In this document: one piece after another, positions 3,001 through 39,193 of the stretch
Layout of the letters: every line of letters begins with the position of its first letter
Position numbering within the stretch: the stretch's first letter is position 1
Assembly: GCA_963971285.1 (NCBI GenBank)
Contig: OZ020254.1
Location: 3,906,001 to 3,970,000 of the forward strand
DNA length: 64,000 bases
Direction: 5' to 3'
Origin: Astropecten irregularis
Lineage: Eukaryota > Echinodermata > Asteroidea > Paxillosida > Astropectinidae
Made by a program: the position numbers and the translations under genes
Notes under the pieces: model-generated
Seen by the model: the letters and a program-made list of their open reading frames with translations, nothing else
The model's database searches: none
What the model was told of the DNA's origin: nothing

Positions 3001-3941
3001 TAATGTGGTTAGCTCATAGAAAAAAAAGCAGAATGGGGGGGGGGGGGGGACCCACCCAAGGTTGGGAAAAACAGTCCATGGACAATACCCCTAAATTCCT
3101 TTGTCCCTGATCTTATGGCCTAGTGGTAATTGTGATCAGTTCCAACAGCTGTTCCCATGTCACACTACAAGTTGTCCTTACTGAACAAAAAAAAAGGAAA
3201 ATGTGCATGCTCTGGCATCACCAGACAGTTCGGCTTACAATCCTTCCAAAGCAAAATGTCCAAATTCGAAGATTCTTCAACTTTTTCCAGGGTTGGAATC
3301 ATCAGCCAACATGCCACTTCTCCACAAACATCTCTAATGACACAGACAAGGTGATAACTCTTCAAAATGTCCAAAGTGATATGTTTTTTTTTATCACAGT
3401 GCAACTGAAACTGACTCCCGACTTCCTGGAGAGGAGACTAGCGACTGAATTTTTCAACCAGCCAGGCAAACAAAGGAACACCACATGTGGCCTCCCGTCC
3501 ACACAATCTGTTCAACTTGGGGGTTAGTGTGCCATGGGTTCACCCATAAATAAATAAACAGGGGGGACAAAAATGACAAGCTTAATAAAAAAATTGGAAT
3601 CACAATGAAGCCTCCTCGTCAAATACATGATAGTGCCCGACTAGATAATTGTGGATGGAAGTAGGCCTAGAACCGTAGTTTTAAGTACACCATTATTGTG
3701 ATGTACGTGCAATAATGTTAATGGAAGAATTGAATCCATTGATTCGTCAAATTAAGATTAAGTGAAAGTGGATCCATTAACCATCATTAATATTGCAAGC
3801 TTTCCCAATCAACGCCTCATTTGTAATTAACACAATTAGTCAAATATAGTCTTTAACAGATTACAGAACGTCTACATACATGTGTGATTTTTCCATGTTA
3901 CAACTCCCAGACAAAACTATGGTACTATAACTTGTTTTGAT

Positions 3942-4015
3942 CGTGCTTAGAGTTAGGAGGGCCTGACGCGTTCCGATCCTAGCAGGATCTATATCGAAGG
4001 CTATGTGAGTTTATT
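3942..4015 (-). mobile_element. Hammerhead-like short insertion, 74 bp, single antisense arm
   Basis: On the minus strand it reads AGCC, TTCGATA, stem GATCC-TGCTA-GGATC, GGAAC, GC, GTC, AGGC. It is flanked by a perfect 12-bp direct repeat ACTTGTTTTGAT (3930-3941 and 4016-4027). The last few bases before the right repeat resemble the family tail AGTTTATTACTTG, so part of the right repeat may belong to the element. It looks like an internally deleted copy. Confidence 0.6.
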
Positions 4016-5099
4016 ACTTGTTTTGATTGTATTAACAGCCATCTAATATGTAGAAAAGAGAATGAGACCCCTACCTGTCCTCGTTACAAAGCCGCCGTGC
4101 TCAGTGCTGTCTGCGATACATCCCAATATGCTGAAATTTGCTGGTAGTACATCCATGTATTTTTTCCCAGCCTAGGAGTAGGAAGAGAGCCTGGCACACA
4201 CTAGTAGTATAATTAAAAATCCCTTCACAATGCAGTGGAGACTCGGCAGGCAGGTACATGTAGGTATGGCACCCACTGAGTGTTAATAATAATCAGGACT
4301 AGTATGGGTAATCCTCTGTGCATTACATAACTCCGGCTCAGAGTTAAATCCAGGAGTTAAGGGGGCTCAGACTGCTAGGAGTAGTACAAGAAAGCTCCCC
4401 TTGCTTGATTACTGTTGACCTTGTAGGGTACCATGGTTGAGGCCCTTAGCGGCTGACAATGTGCTGAAGTGAAGGAACAGCCTGTAATTGACTTCTCTTT
4501 GTGGTTACTGATCAACACTTGTGGCTTGTTGTCCAGCTTGCTTACTGACTAAATGAGTCAGTCATTCAACTTCACAAAAAACCAAATTCATATGGTAATC
4601 ACATTCCATGGGAGAGAGTGTAGGTCAGAGTCAGTGTGGTCTGCCAATATAACAATGCAGTTGGCTAGCTCAGTAGAAGCTGGTCTCATCCTGTCCAGTC
4701 ATAACTCCACAGCCTCTCCAAAAAAATGCCCAAGAATGTGCGGTAGAGACAAGGCTGGCAGAGGGTCATCACCTCTACTACAGCTCGTGATGTTGTACTG
4801 GTGTTGAACTGATGAGAGGGCACTGCTGGCAGCCGTAATAAGCAGGAAACAGCATGCCAAATGCAACGGGGGTTTAGTTAGAGAGGAAACTGTGAAACAG
4901 GGGGGGAGATCAAGCCGGGGCCAAACCTCTTCCTACCGCTGTGAGCATGTGGCGGTGTTGGCTGGCGACGACGACTTCGACGATGCATGTGCACTCCAAT
5001 CCATTCCGTCCATATTACACACACAACACAACACAACACGACCCGGGACAACCAACCAACGTGATGTGATTGTTAATATTATACTGTATAATATAACAC

Positions 5100-5200
5100 G
5101 CACACATGTACATGTGTGTGTGTGCGCAAAGTGAGCTGACTCCCAACTGTGTGCCGTGGCAGTGTGTGCACATACACACACCACACACACACAGTCCAGA
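5100..5200. repeat. GT/CA microsatellite pair
   Basis: Alternating TGTGTGTG (5112-5125) and CACACACA (5164-5190) tracts in opposite strand sense are about 50 bp apart. Confidence 0.7.
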
Positions 5201-6586
5201 CCAATACTATAATATCATTATATCCGCCAGTCAGGTGACCTCGACCAACCACAGACTTAGACACTCAATCAATAGGCCATTCACAAGCCAGCCAATGAGT
5301 CATTCTGTTACATTGTGCTATGCAGGTGTACACATATTCAGGGATGGTCTTCTATACTCCAATATAAACACGCCGCTGTGATAATGATTGAGGCATAAGC
5401 TGAGATTGAGAATGAGAGAGGATGGAGTTTGGAGACTAAGATTTGTCAGTGGTGGTGGGGATGGTAGACGGGAATTGCTCCCCGAGGTAGTTATTTATGC
5501 AAAAATAACCCAGTGAATCATACATTCAATACGTGCCAGTTTAATACCAGCCACTGTAGGCTGCTACTGCCATGCCTGCATTTCAACATCCCCATCACAT
5601 ACCCATGACATCATCAAGTTTCCAAACAGTCCCTCCCAAAAATACACTCTCTTTCAATACACACAATCTGACATTGCCTTCCTAAAAAAACACCCTAGGT
5701 GTCCTCAGAATGTATGCAACAATTACAACGAGCAGAGGGATCCTTGAATGCTCTGGGATTTCTAGGACTCCATGCTGCTTGCTGCTTTTTGAATAGGAAC
5801 AAAGGACCAGTCAATCCTCCTTACGCCACCTTAAATCCGGATTCCACACAAGCCTCTTTCAAATTGATTTGCTCTTAGAATCAGAAATAGCTGTGCATCG
5901 GAGCATTACTAGGAAGTTAGGAACTAGGGGGTGTTTGTGCACATTTCTCCTGTTTTTTTTTTTTTGGTTCCCCAAAACCTTCCCCTCCGACCTTTCACCT
6001 CTGCTGACCCCACATTTGATTCTGCTTATCCTGTCAGGGAAGGTAGACGACCTCATGTGAAGTCAGCGGGGCCTTTAGTTTAATACCGAGCCGTTTACAA
6101 CCTATCCCCCTTCCGCTCAACACGGCCTGCCATTCAAGCAGTCATTTGTGAAAGTCTTTCCCCTTTCAATTAGCACTTCCTGGAAGGGGAATCTAGGCCA
6201 AATTTTTTCCCACTAAGGCGTTCCATTGTTGCCAAAAATACCCAGCGTGTTTAAATGGGACAAAAAAGGGGAGGAAAGAAAAAGAAAGACTAGCCATAAT
6301 TTTCTTCCCTGTTAGAACAAGGGCACTATTATTAACCGAACTGAGAACAGGAGTCGTCAAGTTGAACAGCAAATCCTGTATTTTAAGTTGCTGAAAATAT
6401 TTATCAAATAACATGAATAAAACCTTTCACATAATGTTTTCAATTACGGACGTACAATATGACGGTTTTTCCTCTTGCATTCCTGTGACAAAAAAAAAAC
6501 TCACTGACAATATACAACATGTCCACCATTCAATGCCGTTAACTTAACAACAGTCCCTGCAAAAGTGAACAAGATTTTTTCTTTTC

Positions 6587-6713
6587 AGCCTTTGAAAAAG
6601 ATACTGCTAGGATCGAAAAGTCAGGCCCTTCTATAAACTCCAAGCATTCTACATATAAAATTTCAGGTCATTATTTTGGTTGATGAGCAGTTTGCAGCAG
6701 TTTATTATTTTTA
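6587..6713 (+). mobile_element. Hammerhead-like short element with family tail
   Basis: The plus strand reads AGCC, TTTGAAA, stem GATAC-TGCTA-GGATC, GAAAA, GTC, AGGCCC. A tail follows with TTTCAGGTCATTATTTTGG and GCAGTTTGCAGCAGTTTATT, shared with the copies at 8991, 20378 and 38944. No clear flanking duplication is visible. Confidence 0.55.
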
Positions 6714-7291
6714 AAGTGTTTTTTTTTTTACACAGGGTAAAACAATTTCATAGAAGAATAATTTATGATAATTCAGAAGAAAAAAAAATATATGCAAAAA
6801 TATTCCCAAATTATGTTTGTGAGATACTTAACCAGCTACTTTATGCATTACAATATTTATGTGAATACACATTCATACTGTATATTCATGGGCATATGTA
6901 GGACTCTCACTTTAATATCCCGTCCTAAAGTAGGTTAATGATCAGTGTACCAACCATCCTTCACTACAATTCCAGATCAACACAGTGCTAAACATGTACC
7001 AGTATCTTCTTAAACCGCCGTCCAGAGAGCCACCATTGACGATTTCAGTCTTATTCAAAGACAAAACACTAATACACACACATGATACATGTAAATGGTT
7101 CATGGTTATAATTGTGTGCACTAGTATAGGTTAAAGGGGACTGTAACATGTTTATCAAGCTTCACTCCATCCAACCTGTTAGGAATTACCCCAGATTGAA
7201 TAACATTGTGGTGCAATGTAGCCCTACATGTACGTTATTGAAATTTGAATTCACGACATGCCTAACAGAACCATATTTTAACTCTCAAATG

Positions 7292-7339
7292 AGAAAGATC
7301 CTGCTAGGATCGCAAACGTCAGGCCCTCCTAACTCCAAG
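7292..7339 (+). mobile_element. Hammerhead-like minimal insertion, 48 bp
   Basis: Only the stem II to CTCCTAACTCCAAG part of the family is present: GATCC-TGCTA-GGATC, GCAAAC, GTC, AGGCCC. It is bounded by a 13-bp direct repeat with one mismatch, TAACTCTCAAATG (7279-7291) and TAACTCTCAGATG (7340-7352). This is the smallest copy that still appears to have a target duplication. Confidence 0.55.
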
Positions 7340-8990
7340 TAACTCTCAGATGTGTTTGTTCTTGTTTTGTTTTTTTTGCCGGGGAAAGATCATTAATAAA
7401 TCAGTGTTGCCCACACATGGCTTCTGGATGTCCTCAATTCTTCTGAACCGATTCACCGCTACTGCCGTGCTTACTGGTTAATCATTTCAAACTAGCAAAC
7501 AAATTTCAACAGAGAGAGGACCAGGCACCAGCCGCTAGGAGAAAAAAGCAATACAGGCTGCTTTTAAAGACGTGATCCCGTTGAAGTGTCCTGGCTCCAA
7601 GCGGGCTAGTCTCCTCCGTTCATATTATTCACCAGTGACCTAGTTTCATAAATATGACAGGGGATGAAAGCCCCTCGGCAGGCCAGCCAGGCCCAGCTTT
7701 TACTGCTAGACAATCAACAGTACTGCTTTGACATTTCTCACTGTCCGAGCCGAGCCTGTGCAGCTCAAAAATAAGGCTCAGTGGTGTTTTTTTTTTTTTT
7801 TTTTTTCTCCATCTCCGAACTTCTTCTTCCGCTGAAACATTTTTCATTTCTGCGTCCAACTGATATCAGCAGGGCAGAGGGCAAACATGGATGGGGTAAA
7901 AAAAAAAAAAAAGTGCCCCCATCATTGATTTGTCTTTAGAACGACCCAGTATCACCAGGTCAATATTACTAGTGGCCATTTTTGTTCAATGTCCACAGAC
8001 CGTTTGGACACATGCAGAATGGTATTAAGAAAAATCATAGCACAAAAAAAAAAAATTTGCTGACGGAATACAGTGAGATTTCAACAAAAGGGAAAGGAAT
8101 GATTTTCCTGAAGCAATTTCATTGAAAAAATAAATAAAAATACTATGGTTAATTAACAAATAGTATTACGGGCAGTGTTACATTTATGGTTAATGAAATG
8201 CATGTAACTTAAGTTCTTAACACACTTTTTTTTTACATGTTCTTCTCCATGTTTTTTTGTTTTGTTTGTTTAAATTTACATTTATATGACAGTGAAGTGC
8301 AAACATGAGGGCTGCCGGCACTTAATTGAGGAACATGCGTACATGTTCCTATTATATACACATGTTATTCACACATGATTTGACTGGATATTGTTGCTAT
8401 ATTTAAAGGCAGTAACAAGTTATTGTTCTTGTAAACTGCCAGCAACAAATAGCGGTAAATACCGGCAAATCCATTTCTTTCATTACAAAGGCATCCAGTC
8501 GTAAAAGTACTATTGAGAAGGCCTACACACTCGTAATCTTTTACTTGTCCTTTTTTTTTCTAAATGTCAATCATGTGAATACAGCAACACTTTGGCTGTC
8601 TGTAGTTAAGACATGAAACAAACAAATGAGACGGCCAACAAACAGCCTTGCGAATTTCTTGGAGCGTGTGAACTTAAAACTGACATTTGTTCTTGACGGC
8701 TTTTTCCTTGGCGCAACAGAATCGGTCGGCAAGGTGAACTGCACGTAGGCAGTCGGCGTGCTTACATAGCATGCTTGCGTCAGCTCATCCGTGAGTGCCG
8801 TGTAGGCGAGCATAGGATGGATGGACGGACGGCGTACCTGACCTGAGGTCCTCCTGGGAGGACTGTGGGCGGGTTACACAACAACGAACGCTCAGCAGCA
8901 ACAAAATATCATGATCTTGCAAAATATCCAGTAAATTCCGCACACGAGAGACTGCCACCTGTCAAACAGATATTCCACTCCTGAATTTTG

Positions 8991-9154
8991 CTTGGGAGTT
9001 AGGAGGGCCTGACGCGTTTCGATCCTAGCAGGATCTTTATCGAAGGCTAAGATCGAAACGCGCCAGGCCCTCCTAAGTCCAAGCATTTGATATAATATTT
9101 CAGTTCATTATTTTGGCAGATGGGCAGTCTGCAGCAGTTTATCACTTGTATGAT
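8991..9154 (+). mobile_element. Hammerhead-like inverted-pair element, 164 bp, with 12-bp target duplication
   Basis: It consists of an antisense motif arm (8991-9053, from CTTGGGAGTTAGG to GAAGGCTAA), then a sense arm (9050-9086) from GATCGAAACGCG to CTAAGTCCAAGC, then the family tail ending GCAGCAGTTTATCACTTG. The sense arm lacks part of stem II, as if lost by deletion between two GATC words. The perfect 12-bp repeat TCCTGAATTTTG flanks it at 8979-8990 and 9155-9166. Confidence 0.7.
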
Positions 9155-9829
9155 TCCTGAATTTTGTTTGACCTCTGAATGTCATTATCACAAGGTGGAA
9201 AATACACTGCATAATTATTGTATGTATAACTATGTACATATAATAGGCCTGCATAATAGGGGCCTACATGATACGCCAATCGCATTATTACATGTAATCC
9301 GCTTTTCTGCTGGTCTTCTCCAACCATATTAGGAATGCTTTTAGACCTCTTGACTTTTCAATCAAATACATTATTTATTTCAATTGCTTTGCATTAACTA
9401 GCTGAAGAAGTTGCTCATAATTCATGGAATCATATCTTCAAAGCAAAATATATTTCTGGGCTGTGAATTTGTAAATGACAGGGTCACATATATTTTCAAG
9501 CCACAAGGACACTATCGGATGACAGTTCTGGAAAAAATGAAGCTCAAGTTTTGCTCAAAGAGCAGGGGGGGAGTAACAAATGCATGCATGCACAAAGTGT
9601 CTGGTAAAGTTTAGAATGTAATCTGGCAGATGAAGGTCAAAGAAAAAGAGTAATAAGTGCAATTTTGCCAGAAGTCAAGATGCTCTCTAAAAGGTACAAG
9701 TGGAATTCTACCCAACTCTTGACACTGGGGGAAAAAGCTTTTCCTCAAACATGCTTACAATTTCATGGTAACTCAGATATATGCTAAGCCAATATTCACC
9801 AAATGTTTAGCTAACATGTTAACATGCTT

Positions 9830-10071
9830 TATTGAATAGGCAGCTCTATGAAACAAAAAATCGCTAAGCATGACATTTCTGCCTTAATAAAAACAGGATT
9901 AACAACCACATTTCCATGTGTTGTGTATCACTTGTGATTGTTCTTTGGCTGTTGTTCGCTGACCATGAATATCAAATCGAATTTTCAATGGTGGTTTGTT
10001 TTATTGGGCAAGCCATTTTTGTGCTAAGCAATTTTTTTTGTGCTAAGCATCTCTATGAAATTTGACCCTGG
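9830..10071 (+). mobile_element. CAATTTCATAGAGC-family element, copy 1
   Basis: The ends are GGCAGCTCTATGAA on the left and CATCTCTATGAAATTTGACC on the right. The body shares TCACTTGTGATTGTTCTTTG and TGCTGACCATGAA-type words with the copy at 46190. Confidence 0.5.
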
Positions 10072-10495
10072 TTTGCTAGCCAAGTGTAACAGTCAGAGTA
10101 ACAGCATTTAATATCCACTGAAGTTGTAATATCTTCACACATATCATACAGTCACACGAACGTATGCCAATTAATAAAGCATGGATCACTGTCTTTGCAA
10201 TTTAATACTGGAATATAATGATACTAACAGAAGGTATCACAGGTGTGCATATGCACGTGTGATACTAGTACTAGACTGGGAGGGAGTAACTCTGGTCATT
10301 GACCTTTATAAATATGTGGAGAGAAGTAATTTTAAGCGTAATGGACAGGATGGAAGGGTAGATGGATGCCACGTGCTGCTCAATTAACTTTGCCTCATGC
10401 CACCACCCAAGCCTGGAAACAGGGAGCCAAACAGCCAGCCTGCCAGCTAGCCACCTGACGTAGACAAAGTTAGAGCAGTGTGTCTATTAAGGAGA

Positions 10496-10772
10496 GGGCC
10501 TTTTCCAAACCTCAGCTCTGGATCAGGGCTCAGGCTCAGGCTCAGGCTCCGGCTCTAGCTCCATTTCGTGAATCCATTCTAAAGTAACGGGTATCAAAAT
10601 AAAGGCTTTTGCATACGGTTTGGAAGTAGATACTCTATTTTGAACAAGAAAACAGAGATTCGGGCTTCAATAAAAAGCAACAACATACACTGTACATATT
10701 TTCAGCATATGGAAGACAGCGCCTGAGCCGGAGATGGAGCCTGAGCATGAGCCGAGGTTTGGAAAAGAGCCC
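10496..10772. mobile_element. Non-autonomous element with CTTTTCCAAACCTC ends and (CTCAGG)n
   Basis: The left end is GGGCCTTTTCCAAACCTCAG and the right end is its inverse from GAGGTTTGGAAAAGAGCCC. Next to each end lies CTCAGG/CTCCGG repeat DNA in inverse orientation. A partial copy lies at 29750-29925, sharing ATTTCGTGAATCCATTCTAA in inverse. Confidence 0.6.
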
Positions 10773-12650
10773 AAGGTTCATTCATCAGCAATGGAGTGTA
10801 GAGTGTGATGCGGTGTGACAACATCCTATCAGATCTGTAGGCCAAAGTAAAACACACCCCTCTCCCCCTGTCCATATGGAGAGTTTTGATCCCACAAGCT
10901 GACACTGCTTAATGTATTAATGCACTATACACACCAGCATCTTGCATTCTGACTGCCTGATATTAATAACCATACACTGCTAGTGCTCCATCATAGCTAC
11001 TACAGGTCATGTCAACCGCAACTTGTCCCAACCTCTCAATGCATCACATTGTATTTGCTAACACTTCAATGAACAGAGGCAACAGAAAAGAGCCACCTTT
11101 TAGATGGACGCAATTAACTTAACAACTACCGCAGAAATTAGTGTTAAATTAGTAAATCTGTATGAAGATGACGCAAAAACGTTTGAGATTGGTAATTCTG
11201 TTGTGTTTTGTATTTTGATTTTCTTCATTCATAGTGTTTGTTTTGTTTGGTTTAATTGTTCATACCTTAACCCGTAAGACTAGTTAGCATATCTTAAGAA
11301 GCTCAGTGTTTGATGGTTCACAATGTTGGCTGAAAGATAGTGACGTTTCCGGATGCGGACTGCTGGCCTTTGTCAAGCTTATATGTTACACATGTATGAG
11401 TAATGCCATTCTGCAATCTGACAATTGTGTGACATCTGGTTTTGTTTTTCGAAGTACAGTGTGGTACAGATTACTTGGAATTGTGTTCACATTCAAAGAA
11501 AAAACACGTCATTTGGTCAAACCAAGATAAGTATCTACATCTCAGCAAACAGGGATGCAAAGACAGTATCAATTATAAGTTGAATCGTGAGGTAAAAGGC
11601 ATCGTCGTCACCGCGCCTAGAAATTTACAAGACAGAACAGCAAATGACAGCCCCTGACTTCCTCCTCGTGATTAATGTCAAGGTATAGCCCAATTGCTTT
11701 GCATCAATCCTACACAGAATCAAATCCAACTCAGTCTTCAAGTGAGAAATACATAATTCGGTCAATGCTGGCAAAAACACAAGACTTCCGGCTCCTGGAC
11801 CTCTTTGCCTCCCCCCCCCCCCCAAAAAAAAAAAATCGGGAGGAGAACGACCAACCGCTCACACATCAAACGGAAAAGCCCCCCATCAAAAATAGATTGC
11901 TCCGGCGTGTTATTACATAAAATTACAAGTCCGGCTTACAAGGGTCCGGGTTTTCTTGCAGCATCTTGGCAGCTTCTTAGCAGCTTCAAGACCGAGTGTA
12001 CGGGAAGGGGGGTGGGGGTGGGGGATGGGGGAAGGTATCGCACACGGGAAGACAAACAATTAGCGAGTGACGGAGAGAGATGGTTTCTGTTAAAAGGACA
12101 CCACCACCGGCCTGATGAACGCCTGAAGAAGATTGGGTTTTGGGAGCAGCTAGGAGGGGGAGGGTTGGAGAGTATTACTCTTCTCCCTGATTGAATTGGA
12201 CACTCTTCGTCTGCCGTTCAGCTGAATACAACCCGACCGGCCATTTTTAGCTTGGGATTGATGGCTAACCTGACCTCCATATGATAAAGTCATTAGACGT
12301 ACTCAGCCAGCCACACACAGACTCCAGGTAGTAACCTTCCTTTCGAGCCGCATCAATTTCATTATTAAAGGGTGCATCCCATCTGGGATGGAAATACCGA
12401 CCCCAAAAAATTTAACCAAACAAAATAGTAATAGCATACAAGCCGTAGTGCTTTGGCCACAAGGGCAGTTAACCACTGACTCACAGCTATCAGGATCTAA
12501 AAAGCAATTAATTAAAACCATGCTTGTCCGGCAACATAATCCCCAGTGAATCTATTCAACTCCGATCAGTCAGGTCATCACTAACAACATGGACAGCGAA
12601 AATGATTATCGTTGAGAGATACATGTTTAAATATCATTATTGCCTCATGC

Positions 12651-13015
12651 TTTAAAAGGTACAGTACAAGATTGGTAGGTAACATAACCAAGCAGAAATG
12701 TTCACAGATTTACGTATAACTTTAGGGGTATAAAGATGGTGCTGATAGAAACATACCATTAAAATGTTTTCGCCTGAAATTGTGTATTTATCCAGAAATG
12801 AGTATTTAAAGCAAACACCGAAAACAGTTTTGATAAAAAAACATTCTTTATGTTTTATAAGAAAAACTGAGTTGGGTTTTTGCTATTTTCTTGTGACTCA
12901 GATGTCCGATTGAGCTCAAATTTGCATAGGTTTATTATTTTATATACATGTTTGATCAGACAAAGTGTGGGTGCTGTTCTATGCCATTTACATATCATGT
13001 ATTATACCTTTAAAA
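12651..13015 (+). mobile_element. TTTAAAGGTA-end MITE-like element, copy 1
   Basis: The ends are TTTAAAAGGTACAGTACAAG and its imperfect inverse ATCATGTATTATACCTTTAA. The body carries family words such as ATTTATCCAGAAAT, CGAAAACAGTTTTGAT, GACTCAGATGTCC and CAGACAAAGTGTG. No coding capacity is visible. Confidence 0.65.
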
Positions 13016-13119
13016 CCTGCATGGCCGCTTACAGCTAAAGGTGGCTCTCTCGTGAATCAGCTTAAATATCAATATTTTCATATTTAATGCATTCATAAAA
13101 ATTTATAACAAACTCTTAC

Positions 13120-18613: not shown

Positions 18614-21600
18614 CTACAAACAAAAACCAAAAAAAAACAATCAAGTAAAATTCAACTGACGACGACTCCTACATCTTCACAATCATATAAATAGTCCATA
18701 CTTTCCAAATATTTCTTTATACAAGCAACAATCAAGACTGCCGGATTGCCTGTATGATAGCGTGGGTGGTTAAGATTATTACGGGATTACGCACGCTTTG
18801 GTGTGGGCGTAGGAGTCAGAGCTCTCTTACCCGTATCAATCACCCGGTGGCTGTGACAAATTAACTGGACAGAGTGTGACGAGGGGAGGGGAAAAAAGCA
18901 GCAAAAAAAACAATAGACCGGTTTGTACGAGAGGCAGACCACCTGCATTTATACAGCAATGAACACTGAACAGTTGAATGAACTACAAGGATACCTTTCA
19001 AAATATTGAACTTGTGGACAGCGGGGAGTTATGTGACTCGGGGTCACTCAGCCAGGGAACCTTACATACGTCCCCTGCCTTCAATTCATTATAACATTAT
19101 AGCATTATAACATTATTGCACTGTCACATTAATATTGCATTATCACAGTTAAAGCCCTTGAACAGCATTAGTAAGGAATCATCAAACATTGACCTTCATT
19201 TATTTATAGGCCTCCAGCAAAAAGATGATTATGGTTAGAAACCTGTCATTGAAATAATGTGAGTTTATTTCAAGTGCTTTCAGCTTGAAAATGGGGTTTC
19301 TGAAGGGGAACCTGATTTGAATCACAGTCTTGTAGTGGGAAAAAGAAGTCAGAATTTTCACACACATATGGGAAAATGTACATTTAACAGAAAAATCAGC
19401 GGCCTTTAAAAATGGAGTTTTGATCCTAGCAGTACTTGTATGCACTTCTTGCAAAGATAAGATTTATGATATTGTCTAGATTTTTTCCTCTGTCTGGCTT
19501 TTTTTTTAGGAGGGGGGAATTATTACATCACAGCAATCATAATGCTGAAGTCCATGGTGAGAGATACCAGGACCAGCCAAATTCCCAGACAGCGTCAGAC
19601 TTGAGCAATATGCGATTTTGGAGTGTTACAGGGGTCATGAACAATGCATGGTGGGGTCAGAGGTCGACTGTGTGAGAACCACTTCACAACATCATGCATG
19701 CCTAGCCGCTGGGGTGAGGCTTTTTTATAACAAGGAGGTGGGTATACGTGACAATGACATCCTTTGTTCTAGGCTTGGCTGGCTGGGTCTGGGCAGCCTT
19801 GCTCATAATTTGCTGGGGACCCATTATTTTATTGGTTCCCGAAACTGAGGTCCATATTTCATACTTGCCTTGATTCCCTGCCATAAATTACACTTCACTG
19901 CTTATTTGGGTTTTATACCAGCAAAAAAAACCAGTAACCCCTCCAAAAATAGAATAGAGTAGAACGCTGCTATGACAAACACTGTATCCACAACATTTGC
20001 TTGGTTGAGCGACTGTTTGGTAAAGCTATTTTAAGCTACAAGGTGTTTCAGTGCCATATTGGGCATGCACACTCTTTGGATATTATGTCTATGTTCACAT
20101 ATATTGAATCTCCCCAAAATGCTGCCACACTTGACAGGGCAATCTCACAAACAGTACAAGTAGCATGAGATATTTAATTGTTATATATTTCCTGTTAAAG
20201 TAAAATCTTTCAATTTTTGTTTATTCAAGAGCAGAGTTCGATAGGTTTTGCATAAAAAATTGGAGCCAAGTATCATGGTATTGTTATGGCCACATGACCG
20301 TTTATATGGCAGTGTTCTACTGTTAATTAAAAAAATTAGTAACTTTTCTTTGCTTCAATTCAAAGCAAGAAAAAGACATGTAATAAACTGCTGCAAACTG
20401 CTCATTGGCCAAAATTATCACCTGAAATTTATAAACTGCTTGGAATTAGGAGGGCCTGACACGTTTCAATCCTAGCAGGATCTTTATTTTTAGCCTTCGA
20501 TAAACATCCTGCTAAGATCGAAATGCATCAGCCCTCCTAACTCCAAGCAAGAAAAAGACCAATTGAATTAAAACAAACAATGACAATGTCCGTTTCGATA
20601 CCTCTTCACCAAAACAGAGTCAGAAACATACGTGAAATCACGCTGTTTATCTCCCTCAATTATCCTTCAAAATAACCCCTAAACCAATCGTAATGATAAA
20701 CCATTTTTATACCCATTACTTCAAACATGTACATGACTTCTATCATGCGACACCATCACATGTAAACCGATTCTAAACCAATCAATCAGCCTTATCAGGG
20801 TCAATCTATTTTTATTACCCTCAGAAATAATATTGACCGGGTGCTAATACAACACCCAGAGATCGGGTATGTGACAAATGTCCTTGGCATGATCCTTTTC
20901 TCACTTTCTTTCACATTGATTTGAATTTTTTTTTGGAGGATGGAGACCTTCGCATCTATCTGCTGGTTCCAGGAGATGCGAGAGAGATAGAGAGATGTGT
21001 GGTGAATTGAACGGCAAGCCTAAGAGTAGGAGGAGGATGATGGGGCATTCCATAGGCCAAATACAGTCAGGCAGATGGGCCTCTCACAGACATTCCTGGG
21101 ATTCTCAGCCTGGCAAGATACCCAGTAACATGGCATTCTTGGAGAGGACATGGGAAGGTAAGAAGGGGGGAGGAGGGATATAGGGAGATGACCCAACACA
21201 GTTTACGTCAGTGCAAGCGACATGAAGACTAAACGGCCAAGGATTCTGATTGCCTAGCATGATAATATTAACCCTCCTCAACGACCGATCATTGAGTCGC
21301 ATTAAGTGCCTCCTTTTTATATGAAATCATATCCATTGGTGATGACTGACAGGACGACGTCTTAGCGTGCATCCTGCGCAGTGCACCACCACCGGGACAG
21401 CACTGGTACCGCATCTGGTTGTAATGCAGCTATTCTGTCCAGGTCATGGATTGAGAGAATGCATCCTGACAGCGAGGTGGGACATTTACATACAAATACC
21501 TCAACATGTACACCACATGTATTAAGGATAATAATACGACAATCAATCCTATACAACAGTCACCCAAACAAAATCTCAACCAACATACGTTATCTCCTAA

Positions 21601-25915: not shown

Positions 25916-25980
25916 CTGAGAAAGCGAAAAATACAAGACGATGACACGTTAGCATCCTACAGTTAAAATTATGTTAGTCT

Positions 25981-29423: not shown

Positions 29424-29749
29424 GTACAACAAGGTATTAGAGCTAGCGGTCTATTTTACGTAATTCAGCAACAGCTTGATATTGATCGTGTAAGTAAGAG
29501 TGTTAATTAATACAGGGAATCAATTATGATGATGGATGCATAGGTCTGCAATTAGCACAGACTGTCTGTCTGTGTATGCATCACTCCAACTCAATTGGCT
29601 CATTTCAGAGGCATTAATAATTTCCTAATTACTAGAAAGCTAATTAGTTGGTGATCCACTGATAATATTCAGATAACTCAATATTATACACACAAACCAA
29701 AAAGACTAATGGAATCCATTTTTTATTCTATGGGGGATTACGAAATTCA

Positions 29750-29925
29750 GGCTTCGGCTCTGTCATCCTTATGATGAAAATATAGGTTGTGGTTTGGTTT
29801 TTCATTGAAGCTGAAGCTCTGTTTTCCTTTTCAAACCAGAGAATCTACTTCTCAACCGCAGCCAAAAGCCTCTTTTTTGATACCCGTTATTTTAGAATGG
29901 ATTCACGAAATGGAGCAGGAGCCTA
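29750..29925. mobile_element. Partial relative of the 10496-10772 element
   Basis: It shares in inverse orientation the words GATACCCGTTATTTTAGAAT, GGATTCACGAAATGGAGC and related CTTCGGCTC/GGAGCC end material. The outer CCAAACC ends are not complete. Confidence 0.45.
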
Positions 29926-30714
29926 ATAGCCTGTTTTGTAAATGCCCTATATTTTGTTCTCAATTCATCTGGAACATCTTCAATGTAATAAATTCTTTAT
30001 TCAGATATTTGGAATAAAAAAATAACAATAATATAGAATAAAAAATGGCTTCCATTAGTCTTTTTGGAGTGTGTATATAATATTGAGCTATTCATACTAC
30101 AGCAATCAAGTTTGGTACGCTGATGGCTATTCCTCGATGAAATACAATTTTATATGTCAAGTCAATACCTCATATACATCACGCCATAGAGATTCCATGC
30201 GAACCAGGTGCATTATTGAAATGAATTTTTCAACCTAACATTTAAAAAAAAAAAAATTAATTAATACAAAATTTAAAATACATGTGCATGTACAATCTGA
30301 CTCTACAGCAATAAATGTGTGGAACAACATCTGCATCAATAACCACAAAAAAAAACCCAAAAATCGAATCAGATCCCAAAATGTCAAAATTCTTCTGAAT
30401 AGCCTGGACAAAAAAAAAATCTGGATGATTAAACACGACAGTTGGCACATCCTCCGATATTGATCGCATTTCCCAACGAGGCTCTGTAATTTCATGTATT
30501 GAGGTCAGCCAGATTCTACAGTGCTCGAGGCAATAGGTAGCCTTCATGAGAACAAAAGCCAAGCAATATAATGGAATAGAATGGAACGCGCTTCAGATGC
30601 ACTGAGGATGCTCAACAAGCCACACATGCATATTTTGGACATTTAGGGTTATCACAAAATGTTTCATGAAAGCAAAGCTGTAGTCAGTTGATTGTAATTT
30701 TTGTTGACTGTTTT

Positions 30715-31086
30715 CTTTAAAGGTTAAGTACAGAACAGTACCCAAACAGAACTGTTCAAAGATTTACATATAACTTTCAGGAAATGAAGATGGTGCTGGT
30801 AGAAACATACCATAAAAATATTTCCACCTGAAATGCTGTATTTATCCAGAAATTAGTCAAATAAAAGACCGAAAACAGTTTTGATCTCGAGGTAAGATCA
30901 AAACCATTCTTTATGTTTTATAAGAAAAATTTAGTCGGGTTTTCGCTATTTTTTCGTGACTCAGATGTCCAATTGAGCTCAAATCTTCACAGGGTTATTA
31001 TTTCATAATGTACCGGTAAATGCTGGATCAGACAAAGTGTGAGTGCTGTTCTGTGACCATTACCGATCATGAATTAAACTTTTAAA
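30715..31086 (+). mobile_element. TTTAAAGGTA-end MITE-like element, copy 3
   Basis: It carries all family words, including GATGGTGCTGGTAGAAACAT, TATTTATCCAGAAATTAG and GACTCAGATGTCC. The inner hairpin is TTTTGATCTCGAGGTAAGATC-like. The 60 bp to its left, ending TTGACTGTTTTC, matches the right flank of copy 2 in inverse. Confidence 0.62.
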
Positions 31087-31839
31087 TAATAACGAAAGAA
31101 GACTGATGAAAATTTTGCTGGACTGGTATGACTTCTTGATTATGACAGACGCACGAATCAAACTTATCAGGGGAAAAAAAGGAGAACAAGGTTGCGTTTG
31201 ACATACAATTTCAGTCCAGCCAAAAATTTGTAAGCCAGGGACGCCGCTATTTGGATAAACATGGGGGAAGGAGAAGGGCCAGAAACCCAGTTGAGCAAAT
31301 GAAATAACAGGGGCACCTCCTGCACAAGCAAGACTGGCAAATTTGTTTGAACAATCCTTGTACTCATACAGGTGGATTGGGTCCCTATCTACCCTGGCCC
31401 AGATAAAACAAGCTAGGTAGAGACATCTGAAAAGGTGTAGACCCAAAAAAAAACAAGAAAAAACTAGACCTGTGTTTGTTGACAAACACTGAGCTGTTTC
31501 GCGTATGTTTTATAAATAAAATGAAAAACAAACATGAACGCAATTGGCCCAGTACAGAGAAATAGCGGTGTTTTAATTGTTGTAAACAACTATCAGGAGC
31601 GTCGTCACTCGTCCATAAATACACGTATACAGATTCGTGTACATACACATGCCCATGAGAAACACAGAAATGGCCGAGTCTATTACAGACCAGCATGCGT
31701 AGTATGTATGGTTGTGCATGGGCGGTGGAAACAGCAAAATGATTGATTTTCTAGCGATGTCGTGCTCCGTTCACGTGTACAAAATTGGCCCACTACTATA
31801 GATAGCCATATCAGCGGTCCAAAAAGTTCCAAAGACCGT

Positions 31840-32560
31840 GTTTTGTGTTATTTTTGACTCTAAATGGCAAAATTAATTATTTAAAAAAATCAGTCGATGA
31901 CGTCATCGTGACGTCACTTCACATTTGGGATAGTAATAGCGTTTCCTACCTACCCACCAAGTTTCATCAAGATCGGATATTCGCTTATATGTGTTTCTGT
32001 GAAAAAATGGCAACATTAATTATTCAAAAATCAATAAAAAATAAACCGATGACGTCATTGTGACGTCACTTCACATTTCGGATACTAGTACCATTCCCTA
32101 CCTACCCACCAAGTTTCATCACCATCGGATATTCCCTTATATGTGAATCAGAAAATCAGCTTTTTGATGACGTCATCATGACGTCACACCTTTTTGATAT
32201 TTTGTGACATGTGCCTATAGCCTAACAAACATATTGCCGAAAGAATTTCGAAAATACAATTTGTCGTTCATGAGATATAAAGAAAAGGTCCAAAAATTGA
32301 ATAATTCGTATAAAATCACATGATGACGTCATCAACACGTGACTGCAATTTTTGTCTATAACACGTCCCCATATACTTACATACCAAGTTTGAGCTGCAT
32401 CGGACTTGCCATTCCGGAGATAAAGAGCCCTAAAATTTGCACTTTTATGATGACGTAATTGTGCACGTGATGACGTCACGATGACGTACATACGCGGGAC
32501 ACTATTCGGGGTGTTGGTCTAACTGTGTGCCAAGTATGAAGTTGATCGGAATTTGCATAA
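31840..32560 (+). repeat. Degenerate tandem repeat with eight TGACGTCA octamers
   Basis: Units of about 118-156 bp each contain GATGACGTCAT, usually a second TGACGTCA three bases on, and then CCAAGTTTCATCA-type plus ATCGGATAT words. Perfect TGACGTCA sites start at 31898, 31909, 32050, 32061, 32168, 32179, 32324 and 32471. The octamer is the CRE consensus bound by CREB/ATF proteins, but regulatory use here is only a possibility. Confidence 0.7.
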
Positions 32561-32975
32561 TGGTAGAAGTGGCTCTTAGAAAACCCCTGTGTTATGTCTA
32601 TGGGAAAAAAGTGGAAAAAGAAGAAAAAAAAAAAGAAAGAAAAAAAAAATAAGAAAAACAAAAGCTGTTCCGCTGCATGCGAAACAACTAAAAACGCATT
32701 GATTTCTTCAGTGGCATGCATTGTCTAAGTAGAATTTGATAGAAAAATATTTCAATATTTTTGAAACACTATAGGTACAAACATGCATGAGGGTTTCACC
32801 AAAATATTCAATATTGAATGCAGAAGATAGCAGGATTTTAAGTGCAACTAAAAGGTTATTTTTTGTCATGTTTTGGTATTCTGTTTAGTTTGGAATGTAT
32901 AAACATAATAAAATGTTACAATATTAGGTATCTTTATAACATTTTTTATCATTTATTATTTTGTATGTGTATATG

Positions 32976-33148
32976 CAGGCCTGGAATTACATGTAAGTTC
33001 TGAAAGGGGCAAGGCCACTTTTGCATTGCAAGGGGCACTTCCATTGGAAAATCATATTGTCTATGGAAATATGTAAAGGGGCACCAAGGCTAAGAACCAG
33101 GGCAACGAATGCCATGGCCTCCGTGGCCTCCGTTCACTTCCAGGCTTG
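32976..33148 (+). mobile_element. CAGGCCTGGAATT-end element, copy 1
   Basis: The ends are CAGGCCTGGAATT and CTTCCAGGCTTG, with TATATG adjoining both sides. The body has GGGGCAAGGCCACTTTTGCA and CCATGGCCTCCGTGGCCTCC. It is related to 36446-36612 in inverse. Confidence 0.6.
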
Positions 33149-33207
33149 TATATGTATCCACATATATAAACAAATTAGAATAAATTGTTAATACTGAAAA
33201 GATGCAA

Positions 33208-33405
33208 CTTAAAGGTAGTATCATACTTTGGTATCATACCGAAACAGAAATCGTCACAGATTTACCTATAACTTACAGGGTATAAAGATGGTGATGTTAG
33301 AAACATACCAGTAAAATTTGTTCTGCCTGAAATGCTGTATTTATCCAGAAAAGAGAATCTGCATTTCTTGGACAAAAACCAAAAGTATGATATTACCTTT
33401 AAAAA
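33208..33405 (+). mobile_element. Short 198-bp derivative of the TTTAAAGGTA family
   Basis: The ends TTAAAGGTAGTATCATACTT and AAGTATGATATTACCTTTAA are almost perfect inverted repeats. The middle keeps GATTTACCTATAACTTACAG and TGTATTTATCCAGAAA from the family, but the inner hairpin and the right half are missing. Confidence 0.6.
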
Positions 33406-33951
33406 GATTTAATAATGCTAATAATAATATTAATACTGAAAATCTAAAAATGGGCATTCATGTTTTTTCAGGTGACATTTGAAGTTCCCTGTGCAAACAT
33501 AATCTTTGTTCCGGCATTCCAAAGTCTCCCCATAATCAATATAGCCTACGTGTTTTCTTCTGAGGCAGGTGATCTTTGCCACGGCGACGGAGCGAGATTT
33601 ACAGTGCCACAAAGGTTTCATTGTTGGTAAAGTCGTTTTTGCTTTCAATTTTGGTAACAGTGCGTGTCGGTTGGCAGTTCACGTATACCTGTGTGCACTA
33701 TTTTACTGCTTTGCAAATGATGCCTTTTTACAACATTAATCCACACACACTATTTATGGTATCATATCACATTAGCGCAGTATTGTTTGCTATTAACATT
33801 TTAAGAGGTTCAGACTGATGTGAAAGTACAGATGTATGGTGATATGGGCTGGTCTGCCACACACACCACCAAAATGATAAATTTGATGTAAGATTATACC
33901 AGCCCTGCAAAGAGAGCTTACATTCACTACCCCCCCCCCCTTCCCTCCTCC

Positions 33952-34324
33952 TTAAAGGTATAATACATGATTGGTAAAGGTTACAGAACAGCACTTTGTC
34001 TAATCCAACATCAACATGGAGGCCCCACATAAAAAAAAATGCAGACATCTGAGTCACGAGGCAATAGCTAAAAACCTACTCAATTTTTCTAATATTAAAA
34101 CAGAAAGAATGGTTTTGATCTCACCCCGAGATTGAGAAATCAAAACTGTTTTCGGTTTTTTTTTTTTTGTTTTTTTTTTAATTTCTGGATAAATACACCA
34201 TAACAGGCAGAAATATTTCAACGGTATGTTTTTTACCAGCACCATCTTCATACCCTAAAAGTTATATATAAATCTGTGAACATTTCTGTTTGGGTATGTT
34301 ACCAATCCTGTACTGTAGCTTTAT
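33952..34324 (-). mobile_element. TTTAAAGGTA-end MITE-like element, copy 5
   Basis: It starts CTTAAAGGTATAATACATGA and ends ACCAATCCTGTACTGTAGC. The inner hairpin is GGTTTTGATCTCACCCCGAG followed by ATCAAAACTG. The plus-strand neighbour is a C10 run at 33931-33940. Confidence 0.62.
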
Positions 34325-36445
34325 TATTTATGAAGCAGAAACGATATATCAAATTTGAGTAACCCAGGGCCCCTATTGCCTGTCTAGCAAGGCCATCTGT
34401 TATTAACTGTATGTTTGCTGTTCTCTTTTTCCATGTCTTTCAATCTTTTTTTCCCCCTTTTTGTCAATGAGGACAAGACTACAGGCCTAGACATTAATGC
34501 CATCAATTGCCATGCATATGTAAATAGTTGCGCTGGTGACTCGGTAAAGCATGGCTACCATGCTATTAAGCCGTTGCTGTTGTTGGTTGTTTTGAGGCCG
34601 AGACTGACTGCATGGTGTCAGAGCACAATGTGCCAGCGTGTAGCGGGGTTCAATCCGGGTTCAATTCCATCCCTCACTTCATTCCAACAAAACACACCCC
34701 CCAAAAAGGTCAAAGAGATTTAGTCTATCGCTTTGTTCCTCTTGATTTTCAAATGAGGGTTCAGCACAAGGCTTCGGCATACGCATATTTCGAAGAGGAA
34801 TATCGGCAAAAAGTGAAAGAGATCTGTACCCCCCACCCCCTCTCCCACTGCAAAAAAAACCCCCAAAACACCATATTATCACCCATTATTGATAAGAATA
34901 AAAGGTGAAAACCCTGCCTTGAACAGCTTCGCATGACTGAGCATAACAACAGTGAACAGTTCATCATAAATTTTCATTTCCGTGACTGAGACGGGTGAGG
35001 GTATTTTTTTGTTAACACACCAGACAACAGTTGCTAAAACATTTGGTAGAAGAATTCAAGACATAAATATACACACATATGTACAAAAGGTTGGATGCAG
35101 ACGTAAACTAATAAATGCAAAAATTAAGACAAAAGTTTTTTCCGCTTGATGAAGTTTGAGAACCAAAAAAATTAACAAAATGCAAGGAATTGCAATTACC
35201 AATCCAGATCTGGATACTGGGGTAGATTAAAGGCCAACTTAGTGTTTGACAAGGTGCAATCTGTACAGTCATCTAAATGTGTTCAAAAGTTTGATAACCC
35301 TGAATGATACAATTATAAACCAGCAATGGTGTCCTAGTCTACACATGTAGGCCCTACATACTAGTGCATATGGCTAGTTGAGCCTACCAGTACCATAACG
35401 AATAATAACAGTGAGTATTATGGCTACTTTCAACAAATGTCTACACATCAACCCAAAACCATGTAGGCCTATCTTTAGCATATGGTCCCTAGTGAGTACA
35501 ATAACACAACCAAAAACAAAGCAACGGAGAGGTATCATGTGAAATTAAACACACAAATCCTCTTGTTCACTACTCAAGTAGTACTCAAGTAAATAGGATC
35601 CAGCTAGATTACCCCTGCTGCTAGTTGGATCTAAAAATTGATCATTGTTAGGGTTCAAGAACTGAAAGGTCAGACGGGTTCCAATTGAAGTCCCGACCCC
35701 TCTACCAGACACTTATTGTTTCCAATTCCCTTCACTGGTTACCCCCCTTACCCCCTTGGCACACCACATCGGTTGCTCTGACAACACAGTTTACCAGCCA
35801 AGTTACTGACTGACCTTTGGCAAGTCAGACACAAAAAAACCTCAAGAACACCAACTGACTGCCATGACCTCGTATTTATCAATCATAAGTATGCATTGGG
35901 CAGAAACTGATTGCTCCATCCAGCCAGTCATTCATTCACTGATGCACTAGGCAGCTGCGGCTGTTAGTCTCTCTCAGCTAGCTAGCTGAAGGACAAAGGT
36001 TAGTGTCTCAAGTGTTGACATAGCCGCTTATTAATACATTACATTCATAATCAGCAGGAGCTAACAGGGCATATTGTAATTGTCTGCCCGCACTGTATGG
36101 TACACAGTATGCATGGCAAACAGTATGGTACACGTACTAGCTCGAGAGCAAGGTCTGTTTCTTGCCTGTTTGTTAATATTATACGGCCCAGATTTAAGGC
36201 TTAACATTCTGGACTTTGATCAAGCTTCTTTTTTTATATACCCAAAGGCTGTCTCATTTTGATTGCCAAAGGCTGAAGTTGGGACTGAGACTGATGAGAC
36301 AGGGTTTGTTTGTTTGTTAAGGTGGGATGATGGGGGAGTCATATCCACTTGGAAATGTAGGAGATAGGTCTACTTGGTAAATTCCGCTGTTGTTGATCAA
36401 ACTTGGCGAATGGAAATGTTGTCTTAAAAGTTAAAATGTACAATT

Positions 36446-36612
36446 CAAGCCTGGAATTAAATGGAGGCTACGGAGGTCATGGCCTTTGTTGCCCTGGTTC
36501 TTGGCCTTGGTGCCCCTTCAAATGTTTCCAAGGACATTATGATTTTCCAATGGAAGTGCCCCTTGCAATGAAAAAGTGGCCTTGCCTTTTTCAGAACTTA
36601 ATTCCAGACCTG
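36446..36612 (-). mobile_element. CAGGCCTGGAATT-end element, copy 2
   Basis: It is the inverse-oriented relative of 32976-33148. The ends are CAAGCCTGGAATTAAATGGA and AACTTAATTCCAGACCTG. The shared body includes CCTTGGTGCCCCTT and AAGTGCCCCTTGCAATG. Confidence 0.6.
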
Positions 36613-36944
36613 CAACTCCTGTAACAGTATGTCACTCCATCTCCTAATAAATACCGGTACTGCTAAAATATACAGAAAGCTTGTGTCTTTACAAGGCTTG
36701 ATATTAAAGTTTCTGTATGCTGTAAGACAAGAGCAAGTTGTATCATCACAAAGAAACATGGGGACAAAATAAAAAACACTGTAAGGCAATATTCTTTTGG
36801 AAGACAGTCATTTACGCGCCAGAATAATCTAGGCAAGCCATAAAAGATCAAAACAATGAACCCGCTGTGCAACTTCAGACACACAACAATTTTTGAAATG
36901 CTAATATCGGTTTAATGCTCAAAAAGAAAATAAATAAATAAACG

Positions 36945-37110
36945 AATGACAAGAAGTATGTGGATTGGTTTGCGGAAACGCCATGTAATATTTGTTCGTA
37001 CTTTCGCACTTCTATTTCGTCACACTTCTCTTAAGGTCTGACCGTTTCGACAAGCCTGCTCTAGTCCTCATCAGGAGACAAGAAGTCAAAATTAATCTGG
37101 GCAATATATG
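36945..37110 (-). mobile_element. Repeat with hammerhead-like motif, canonical core
   Basis: The minus strand from 37080 reads TGTCTC, CTGATGA (37074-37068), G, GACTAG-AGCAGG-CTTGTC, GAAAC (37048-37044), G, GTC (37042-37040), AGACC. All three conserved hammerhead boxes are present in the right order. Stem III is almost absent, as in the hammerheads known from Penelope-like retroelements. The flank with GGTTTGCGGAAACGCCATG resembles the flank near 62220. Confidence 0.55.
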
Positions 37111-38943
37111 AGAGTAAGTAGCTGACAGGTATCAAACGTTGATACTTAGTCATACAGCTATTTGGATCAAGACACACGGGGGCGGGCTAGAAACACACCA
37201 TGCTGATGAGAAACACTTCACCCAGAGTGCCCGACTTCTCCCCTCCCCTCCACCTACATAATAGTACATGCCCTCGTAGATGCCCCCTGTTCGATTGACC
37301 TACAAACAGGACTCAAGAGATAAACAGATTTCATACGCACCCCTTGTGCCGCCAACCAACCATCTCCAAGTCTTCCCACACTTCAAGTCCAACTGGCAGC
37401 TATGAATCCCTAGTACTAATACTTCCACGGGTATCGCTTGCTCCACTTATGTCAGTAATTCAAAGGCTAAACAGATCCAGTGATCCTCCACTCCATTAGG
37501 GAACCGGTGTAACCCTAAACACTTGATGCGCCACAGTTCCACAATTTAAAGCTTGGATCCTGCTGACCTGCTGTGGCTTTATAACAAGCTTAGGCATCAA
37601 TGGCCGATCACTCCCCCAACCACTTTATGAAAAAAACAAAAATAGTCTGGCAGGAACGATTCAACCGCAATCAAATGGAGGGATGTGTGCGCGGGCCAGG
37701 GCAATAAAATAGCAAGCCAGCAGTGTGTGTGTGTGTACAGCCTGTATCTATGAAGGGGAACAATGAACGAAGCCAGACAGTAAAAGCACATTGGTGCTGC
37801 ATTAGAATGAGTGTGGCTAAGTAAACACACCAGGACCATAAGGCAACAATCCCCTCTTGAACTTTGGGCTTTATACTGCTGTGGCTGGATGACTTCAGTG
37901 TACACATATTACACACCTCACAGTGCATGCATTGCACACCATGGCAAGATTTTGCAAGCATTTCAAGGTATCCAACTGGAGTTAATAACACAACACACAC
38001 ACATACAGCATCTTGTCCTATGACAGATTGTACACATGTAGGCCTACATTGTACATACACTAAGTCATGATAACAGTGCTAAACCATTAATCCCAACACA
38101 AGGTCTGAACTGTAACCCACAATGTTTAACCAGAAACCCACAGGTCTTGATTTGCATGTAACTGGGCACAGGCAACAGATAAGGCCACTTCTAGTACCAA
38201 TTGTGTACACAATGCTGGGCAACAGGACAGTAAAGCACATCCGGCCATTAAAAAAATCCCTCCAGTGTGCATCTACTAGCTTGTAAAACTGGCCTTGAAA
38301 CAGCCAAGTAACAAAACTGATGAAAGGGCAGTTTAGTTTTTGATTGATGGATCGCTTTTATGATATTGATGGGAAGTGAAGGCGGCCCCCTTATCCACTG
38401 GTTGAGTCATGAATGCACTAAAAGCTCACAACAGATCAACCAGATGATTGACTATGATAAGTATTTTTCTGTCTGAAAGGGGAGGAGAGAGAGAGAAGGG
38501 GGGGGGGGGTTGCAGCAAATTTCAAGGAAATGGAATCGAGAGTATGTTGTGTGTTACTGCTGAGGTCTAGTACTTAGTAGTTTAGAGTGATACTATACAG
38601 CCTTGACCCCACATTGCACTGAGCCTTAAGACGGGCTGGGAAACCTGGAGGAGGAACCTGAATGGTTTCCGTGGCAATGGTGGATGAGGTCACTTGCCAG
38701 GCTGGGATCATAAAATGGCTCCACAGAAACAATTACAGTCAAGGAAATTCACTATGGCAGTGAAGTATCTTGTGAACGAAAATGTGTATCTTTGTGTTGG
38801 TTACTGTCACGTCGGTGTGGCCTGCCCCACACAGGGGCAAAATGGAACAGTAAATGGTTTCAATTGACAAAACCGAGGTTTATGTAGGCCTATCTATAAT
38901 CATGAAATAATCACAAGGGAAATTGACTGGATTATTTTTTACA

Positions 38944-39193
38944 ATCCAAGTAATAAACTGCTGCAAACTGCTCATCAGCCAAAATAAGTTAGGAGTGAGG
39001 AGGGCCAGATGCATTTCAAATCCTGGAGGATCTTTATCAAAGGCTAAATGAATTAATTTGAAGTCTTTGAAAAGTGAACAAAGACAAATTGACTGGAGTG
39101 ACTACCAGAATACATTACCGGCGGCGCTCTACCAACTGACCTATCCAGCCCTATGTTGCCAGTGTCCCTAATAGTCAATTATCTTTGTGCATT
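38944..39193 (-). mobile_element. Composite repeat: tRNA-like segment, hammerhead-like arm, family tail
   Basis: Read on the minus strand, a tRNA-like segment (39150-39091) starts GGCTGGATAGGTCAGTTGG and ends with TCCAGTC, which pairs with GGCTGGA. It has lost its T arm. CAATTTGTCTTTGTTCAC follows, then a hammerhead-like arm (AGCC, TTTGATA, GATCC-TCCA-GGATT, GAAAT, GC, ATC) and the tail GCAGTTTGCAGCAGTTTATT. The tRNA-like part and its flanks match the repeat at 51941-52080. Confidence 0.55.

Follow-up and report, generated by a model that had tools for sequence, protein, structure and literature searches.

A family of 60-bp hammerhead-like repeats, probably retroposed, in the genome of Astropecten irregularis

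The stretch of DNA analysed here, called the window, comprises 64 kb of the Astropecten irregularis assembly GCA_963971285.1 (contig OZ020254.1, positions 3,906,001 to 3,970,000, forward strand). Six places within it are occupied by short dispersed repeats, first pointed out in an initial annotation as tiny hammerhead-like retro-insertions; they belong to one family, hereafter family 1, and contain eight core units. A profile built from these eight units recovered all of them from the window, with E values between 7e-36 and 5e-14, the next match having an E value of 0.49. A search for the string made of stem II and GAAA, allowing up to 3 mismatches, gave 6 matches in the window and none in each of 100 shuffles; the matches fall at five of the six loci, the sixth, at 38944, being too diverged for this search. 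The six loci are real members of a common family, and their size, given as 48 to 167 bp by the initial annotation, was found to be about 47 to 167 bp.

The copies differ in composition. Loci 6587 and 38944 are made of one unit and a 3' tail of ~60 nt: the former (6587..6709, plus strand, located by profile) has a box UUGAAAA and a complete tail, and the latter (38944..39049, minus strand) is an old copy, with a box UUGAUAA and an internal deletion in the tail. Unit 38944 shows 9 mismatches to the reference unit, 4 of them CpG transitions; the reference is identical to unit 8991L, whose zero mismatches are accordingly no evidence. Loci 8991 and 20378 are made of two head-to-head units followed by the ~60-nt tail, and their predicted folds reach -61.9 and -75.2 kcal/mol, respectively. 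At 8991, the left inverted arm (8990..9048, minus strand) carries the complete antisense series AGCC, box, stem II, GAAAC, GC, GUC and AGGC, while the right arm (9046..9150, plus strand) is without AGCC and box and continues into the 3' tail. Rfam microRNA matches found at 8980-9160 are below gathering scores and reflect the hairpin. At 20378, tail and right arm occupy 20378..20485 (minus strand), and the left arm, with AGCC and box, 20490..20549 (plus strand). At locus 3942, an inverted unit precedes the terminal 13 nt of the tail: the unit (3945..4002, minus strand, on the plus strand an inverted 5' arm) reads AGCC, box UCGAUAU, stem II, GGAAC, GC, GUC and AGGC, and the tail end, AGTTTATTACTTG, recognized by eye near the inverted arm (4008..4020, plus strand), overlaps the right flanking repeat. 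Locus 7292 (7293..7339, plus strand, located by profile) is a unit devoid of AGCC, box and tail. Altogether, the boxes in the window are UCGAUAA (twice), UCGAUAU, UUGAAAA and UUGAUAA, three units featuring a C at position 4 (U4C). AGCC with a TTYGATA-type box, proposed as common to all copies, is present in five of the eight units (3942, 6587, the left arms of 8991 and 20378, and 38944), but is missing from 7292 and from the right arms of 8991 and 20378.

The target duplications which had also been proposed were found at four loci. Direct repeats flank 20378 (20363-20377 and 20545-20559, a perfect 15/15 match), 8991 (8979-8994 and 9155-9170, 15/16), 7292 (7279-7291 and 7340-7352, 12/13) and 3942 (TTGTTTTGAT at 3932-3941 and 4018-4027, 10/10); the share of random places scoring as high is 0.002, 0.003, 0.0105 and 0.0105, respectively. 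At 6587 only a T-run, a weak repeat, is present (share 0.046), and the search for flanking direct repeats around 38944 gave none (0.75).

The assembly containing the window comprises 475.7 Mb in 168 contigs. The pattern GCCNNNGANNNAGATCCTGCTAGGATCG has 3231 exact matches in it, with none for the reversed control, and TTGANAAAGATCCTGCTAGGAT has 6671. The 60-bp unit of family 1 is present in thousands of copies, isolated or tandemly arranged, and many of them run into a constant 3' tail (..GGTCATTATTTTGGCYGATGAGCAGTTTGCAGCAGTTTATTACTTG); one unit, two units head-to-head and up to about 20 units in tandem were all seen. Thirty loci, the first that the pattern search gave, come from a single stretch of contig C1 and include overlapping ones; 25 of them are tandem (up to about 20 units, several with the shared tail) and 5 single or head-to-head. 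Spacing between units, evaluated in 58 loci with overlapping loci counted more than once, was 60 bp in 182 cases and 39 bp in 24, and the tail is present in 7 of 16 distinct arrays longer than 200 bp. Since arrays of up to about 20 tandem units, several with the same tail, occur in the genome, the window copies are to be seen as short derivatives, probably decayed. The genome-wide check suggested by the initial annotation confirmed the family, but showed more than pieces of 48 to 167 bp.

Additional features were seen in single loci. In L073, the units of an array repeat every 39 bp, their stems I overlapping from one unit to the next (AGGCCT); the array lies beside a tailed inverted arm. A leader ..CTTGTCATT precedes AGCC in L068, L092, L104, L105 and L110, in L068 also in inverted form; from this leader, common to five loci, a longer full-length form of family 1 may exist. 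A tRNA-like sequence of the short interspersed nuclear element type (CGCTCTACCAACTGACC...) adjoins, by eye, a family-1 unit at window positions 39060-39160 and at L092:1716-1788, in both regions apparently in opposite orientation to the unit; the tRNA match in L092 scores 23.6 bits, under the gathering score of 29. Scans of IMG/VR with pieces of the repeat gave 24 loci for a 15-mer (not inspected singly), none for two queries and one for another, and a scan of prokaryote genomes with a repeat piece gave 8 places; the latter and the single IMG/VR place, 9 inspected in all, are without a surrounding unit.

The order of the parts in a family-1 unit is the 3' strand of stem I (GCCU), the box, stem II (GAUCC(U)/(A)GGAUC), GAAAC, 0-2 nt, GUC and the 5' strand of stem I (AGGC). 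Judged from its sequence, the unit has the build of a minimal type I hammerhead retrozyme and may cleave itself, or once have done so. G12, A13, A14, A15.1 and the NUH triplet of the hammerhead are present. The canonical box, C3 U4 G5 A6 N7 G8 A9, is replaced by U3-Y4-G5-A6-N7-A8-A9 plus one extra A, usually UUGANAA instead of CUGANGA; the changes are C3 to U, G8 to A, sometimes U4 to C, and the additional A. Among 130 ungapped array units, 103 have the box TTGAGAAA and 123 have U3-A8. The replacement of C3-G8 by U3-A8 is recorded in several natural hammerheads and is active in vitro (PMC3088659).

In a hammerhead, position N7 is expected to be free and the remaining core fixed, and this is what was found. 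The collected loci contain 91 tails; 52 copies with AGCC and box were kept, 24 without these and 15 without core being dropped. Of 122 columns none varies as much as N7 (1.84 bits, the next reaching 1.28), which has T in 19, G in 18, A in 10 and C in 5 of the 52 tailed copies. The other core positions are far more uniform: T50 at position 3, T37 and C13 at position 4, G5 in 45 copies, A6 in 48, A8 in 48, A9 in 51, G12 in 43, A13 in 51, A14 and A15.1 in 52, U16.1 in 49 and C17 in 51. These counts have to be read knowing that G5, A6 and the extra A, with N7 free, were fixed beforehand in the loci collected with GCCNNNGANNNAGATCCTGCTAGGATCG, as was the box CUGANGA in those from CUGANGA searches, while the other locus sets were under no such constraint as the former; that about three rows of the alignment look misaligned; and that N7 states are partly subfamily marks, so that the counts exceed the number of independent events. 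On a poorly resolved tree, 26 steps were counted at N7, against a mean of 2.9.

Relatives with a CUGANGA box were found both within and outside family 1. A descriptor scan of the window pointed to 62327 and 37076, both on the minus strand; the two copies have two collinear stretches in common (E 7e-4 each), and represent two further families, 2 and 3, characterized by a CUGANGA box and an extra nucleotide after A9. The family-2 copy (62210..62345, minus strand) contains a hammerhead motif at 62286-62332 (CUGAGGA, GGAAC), followed by a histone-type stem-loop and by the tail CATGGTGTCATCGCAAACC. The family-3 motif (37035..37079, minus strand) has the box CUGAUGA, GAAAC and, at the cleavage side, GGUC; ACTTCTTGTC is seen, by eye, on both sides of this copy. 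A family-3 copy reads GTCTCCTGATGATGACTAGAAAAGACTAGTCGAAACATTGAGACC, and the copy at L150:2361-2405 has a CUGAUGA box, a 6-bp stem II and a 5-bp stem I. Family 2, for which a first look gave 2207 candidates, 40 of them scored, mostly reads CACTCTCCTGAGGACGAACAGAGCACACTGTTCGGAACGTCGAGA; the tail CATGGYGT..CGCAAACC is common to families 3 and 2. Stems I and II of the sister families differ and yet are complementary (UCUC/GAGA and GAACAG/CUGUUC; GUCUC/GAGAC and GACUAG/CUAGUC). In 29 family-2 units N7 reaches 1.04 bits; four of the 123 columns are more variable, none of them within the motif.

A covariance model was built from nine author-chosen sequences of families 2 and 3. In these, 94.4% of the paired cells are paired and the covariation score is above all of 500 shuffles; double changes occur in 2 of 10 pairs, a value reached by 275 of 500 shuffles. 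Run against 15 author-chosen family-1 loci, the model gave 43 matches (E up to 10), of which 33 lie on family-1 units, which constitute 3.9% of the bases searched on both strands. Within the window, high scores were obtained at the two sister copies alone, which belong to the training set, and family 1 was matched just at 6587 (9.3 bits, E 4.3).

Within family 1, CTGANGAAGATCCTGCTAGGAT occurs exactly at five places: two tailed single copies, one head-to-head tailed copy (L115), one array unit (L093) and one copy with no tail seen (L117). The tailed single copies, L092 and L094, read CTGATGAAGATCCTGCTAGGATCGAAAC followed by GCGTC and GTC, respectively, that is GATCGAAAC-GCGTC and GATCGAAAC-GTC; standard copies have one or two bases fewer ahead of the box. 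With five copies, an ancestral subfamily cannot be distinguished from chance change.

Oppositely oriented units lie within 200 bp of each other in 8 of 20 family-2 loci, so the head-to-head habit is not limited to family 1. In the same family, the stem-loop found about 10 nt past the hammerhead reaches the gathering score of the histone 3' stem-loop model RF00032 in 15 of 20 loci (L140-L159), with up to 38.8 bits, and stays below it in the window copy. It is followed by CACAGAAGAGATT, which resembles a histone downstream element. Family 2 is a putative retroposon in which a hammerhead is joined to a histone 3'-end signal. The window also contains tandem repeats at 31862-32145 and 45025-45576, with 152-bp and 112/129-bp units.

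Several results weigh against the hammerhead derivation of family 1. When a strict core is imposed, the unit score, 14.2, is equalled or beaten by all 400 random strands. In favour of the derivation, under a relaxed descriptor the score of unit 8991L was reached in none of 400 random 64-kb strands, with rules set after seeing that unit. The match to the sister model is weak, the best score (15.8 bits, E 0.059) belonging to the CUGAUGA copy L092, and family 2 itself has GGAAC instead of GAAAC in 25 of 29 units. U4C considerably lowers activity in vitro, the viroid concerned being still infectious (PMC3088659), and in a viroid hammerhead which also has an additional A behind A9, the rate of trans-cleavage is moderately reduced by it (PMC3705267). 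In 102 of 130 array units an A at 16.2 (GAAACATC), as after a G-to-A change at CpG, breaks the outer pair of helix III. The long hairpin dominates folding in head-to-head copies and would compete with the ribozyme fold; the GUC cleavage point is not where the window copies end; and stems I and II, although complementary, are nearly invariant within the family, offering little variation. Covariation of positions 3 and 8 was not found among living copies: U3A8 counts 6671, C3A8 244, U3G8 154 and C3G8 5, the last expected about 5.6 times, and since this two-by-two count fits independence, living copies seem to change neutrally at these positions.

Finally, the Rfam hammerhead models gave no match in the window or in the units, and RF00163 gave none in the A. 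irregularis genome, nor in 14 control genomes. The initial annotation had staked its ribozyme reading in part on such a score, which was not obtained; however, Rfam also misses five loci with CUGANGA motifs, sister families included, and its silence therefore does not decide. The hammerhead layout retains in its favour the minimal type I order, the N7 pattern and the CUGANGA sisters, against a box with U3 and A8 and the lack of an Rfam score.

As for the way the copies move, flanking repeats with a score of at least 9 accompany 23 of 79 elements, a value that 2.1% of random places reach, and the best are 13-15 bp long; they are present in 15 of 37 head-to-head tailed copies and in 1 of 16 arrays. 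The constant tail, ragged 5' ends and flanking repeats suggest that the short forms, at least, arose through target-primed reverse transcription with a borrowed enzyme; the tandem arrays may have expanded in situ. Head-to-head copies look like products of twin priming or snap-back synthesis; an inverted master copy appears as likely, because the inverted arm in the window starts within a few bases of one point four times. The proposal of a non-autonomous, retro-inserted family is in keeping with the N7 signature, the CUGANGA sister families and the direct repeats around part of the copies; many copies are inverted dimers.

We consider it likely that the six copies are members of a family of non-autonomous retroposons, and that their 60-bp module descends from a minimal type I hammerhead in which helix III is almost lacking. 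Cleavage at GUC would once have divided, or would still divide, read-through transcripts of the arrays into RNAs of unit length, perhaps through the action of two adjacent motifs having the self-complementary ACGU/ACGCGU of helix III in common. Reverse transcription and insertion of the RNA would then depend on a foreign enzyme, of the long interspersed nuclear element (LINE) or Penelope type; head-to-head copies would arise by template switching or twin priming, and the window copies would be decayed derivatives of such insertions. Family 1 is not filed as a canonical hammerhead, given the departure from the CUGANGA box, nor as a published retrozyme, given the unit size. A bolder version, possible but doubtful, is that of a hammerhead lineage with U3-A8 fixed as its norm, spread in thousands of copies as the smallest known retrozyme, its units of 60 nt (even 39 nt) released from tandem transcripts by adjacent motifs that work in pairs, with a sister family in the genome whose histone stem-loop may borrow histone mRNA processing for its RNA end.

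Among other explanations, a fully active retrozyme-like system, in which arrays are transcribed, self-cleave to about 60-nt RNAs, circularise and are copied back today, would agree with the architecture and copy number and with the way metazoan retrozymes are described to work (PMC7229834). It appears unlikely, as the core departs from the consensus, the outer helix-III pair is lost in the 102 array units mentioned above, and published retrozyme RNAs measure about 170-400 nt. The units could also be pieces of the pseudo-long terminal repeats of Penelope-like elements, rather than an independent family. This explanation, compatible with hammerhead descent, draws on the same minimal type I design (PMC6155905, PMC7761336); it is judged improbable, none of ten window open reading frames (ORFs) having reached a Pfam family cut-off, a weak argument, as most window frames and the other loci were left unscanned for reverse transcriptase. 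A similarly small chance is given to a foldback, satellite or miniature inverted-repeat transposable element (MITE)-like repeat without ribozyme past, a palindromic hairpin with a coincidental layout, which would account for the failure of the strict core and of Rfam, for the near-perfect hairpins of head-to-head copies and for minisatellite-like arrays with direct repeats around just one in 16, but predicts neither the N7 pattern nor the enrichment of units among sister-model matches, nor the extra nucleotide and helix-III tip shared with the sisters, nor the CTGATGA copies. An ordinary MITE, with inverted repeats at both ends and a short fixed duplication, does not fit elements with arms at one end, an asymmetric 3' tail at the other and direct repeats varying between about 9 and 16 bp.

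Should family 1 prove to cleave, the swapped 3-8 pair would be present in thousands of natural copies of one family, a large mutational record for a core otherwise nearly invariant, and the lower size limit of retrozymes would fall from about 150-170 to 60 nt. Public covariance models missed the hammerhead-like motifs without helix III found here, CUGANGA ones included, and in animal genomes such elements may for this reason be under-counted.

Literature searches, the core string included, returned no report of family 1 among their results. The 'mirage' minisatellites of amphioxus were considered and dropped; these are described as duplications in tandem, located where introns and exons of particular genes meet. 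Schistosoma Sm-alpha, newt satellite 2 and Dolichopoda pDo500 are similar to family 1 in being repeats that carry a type I hammerhead. Their monomers are much longer and have a canonical core; C3/G8 is also found in the (+) hammerhead of chrysanthemum chlorotic mottle viroid (CChMVd). The latter, which belongs to a viroid, shares with family 1 the extra A between A9 and 10.1 (PMC3705267). Hammerheads with U3-A8 show the same 3-8 swap, there as a rare variant with several examples, in family 1 as the standard (PMC3088659). The minimal hammerheads of Penelope-like elements are alike in the near-absent helix III (GAAAC-GUC), in the short stems and in being suited to act as dimers (PMC11167929, PMC6155905, PMC7761336); family 1 differs from these elements in unit size and tail, and no Penelope ORF was found among the ten scanned. 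The metazoan retrozymes without long terminal repeats (PMC7229834) are also non-coding single or tandem repeats of type I layout, present in thousands of copies, with direct repeats longer than 4 bp where present, as in family 1. Their repeats are about 150-450 bp long, with RNAs in the size range given above, whereas family 1 has a spacing of 60 bp (39 bp in one array), a UUGANAA box, many arrays that end in a constant 3' tail, units arranged head-to-head and a putative ribozyme.

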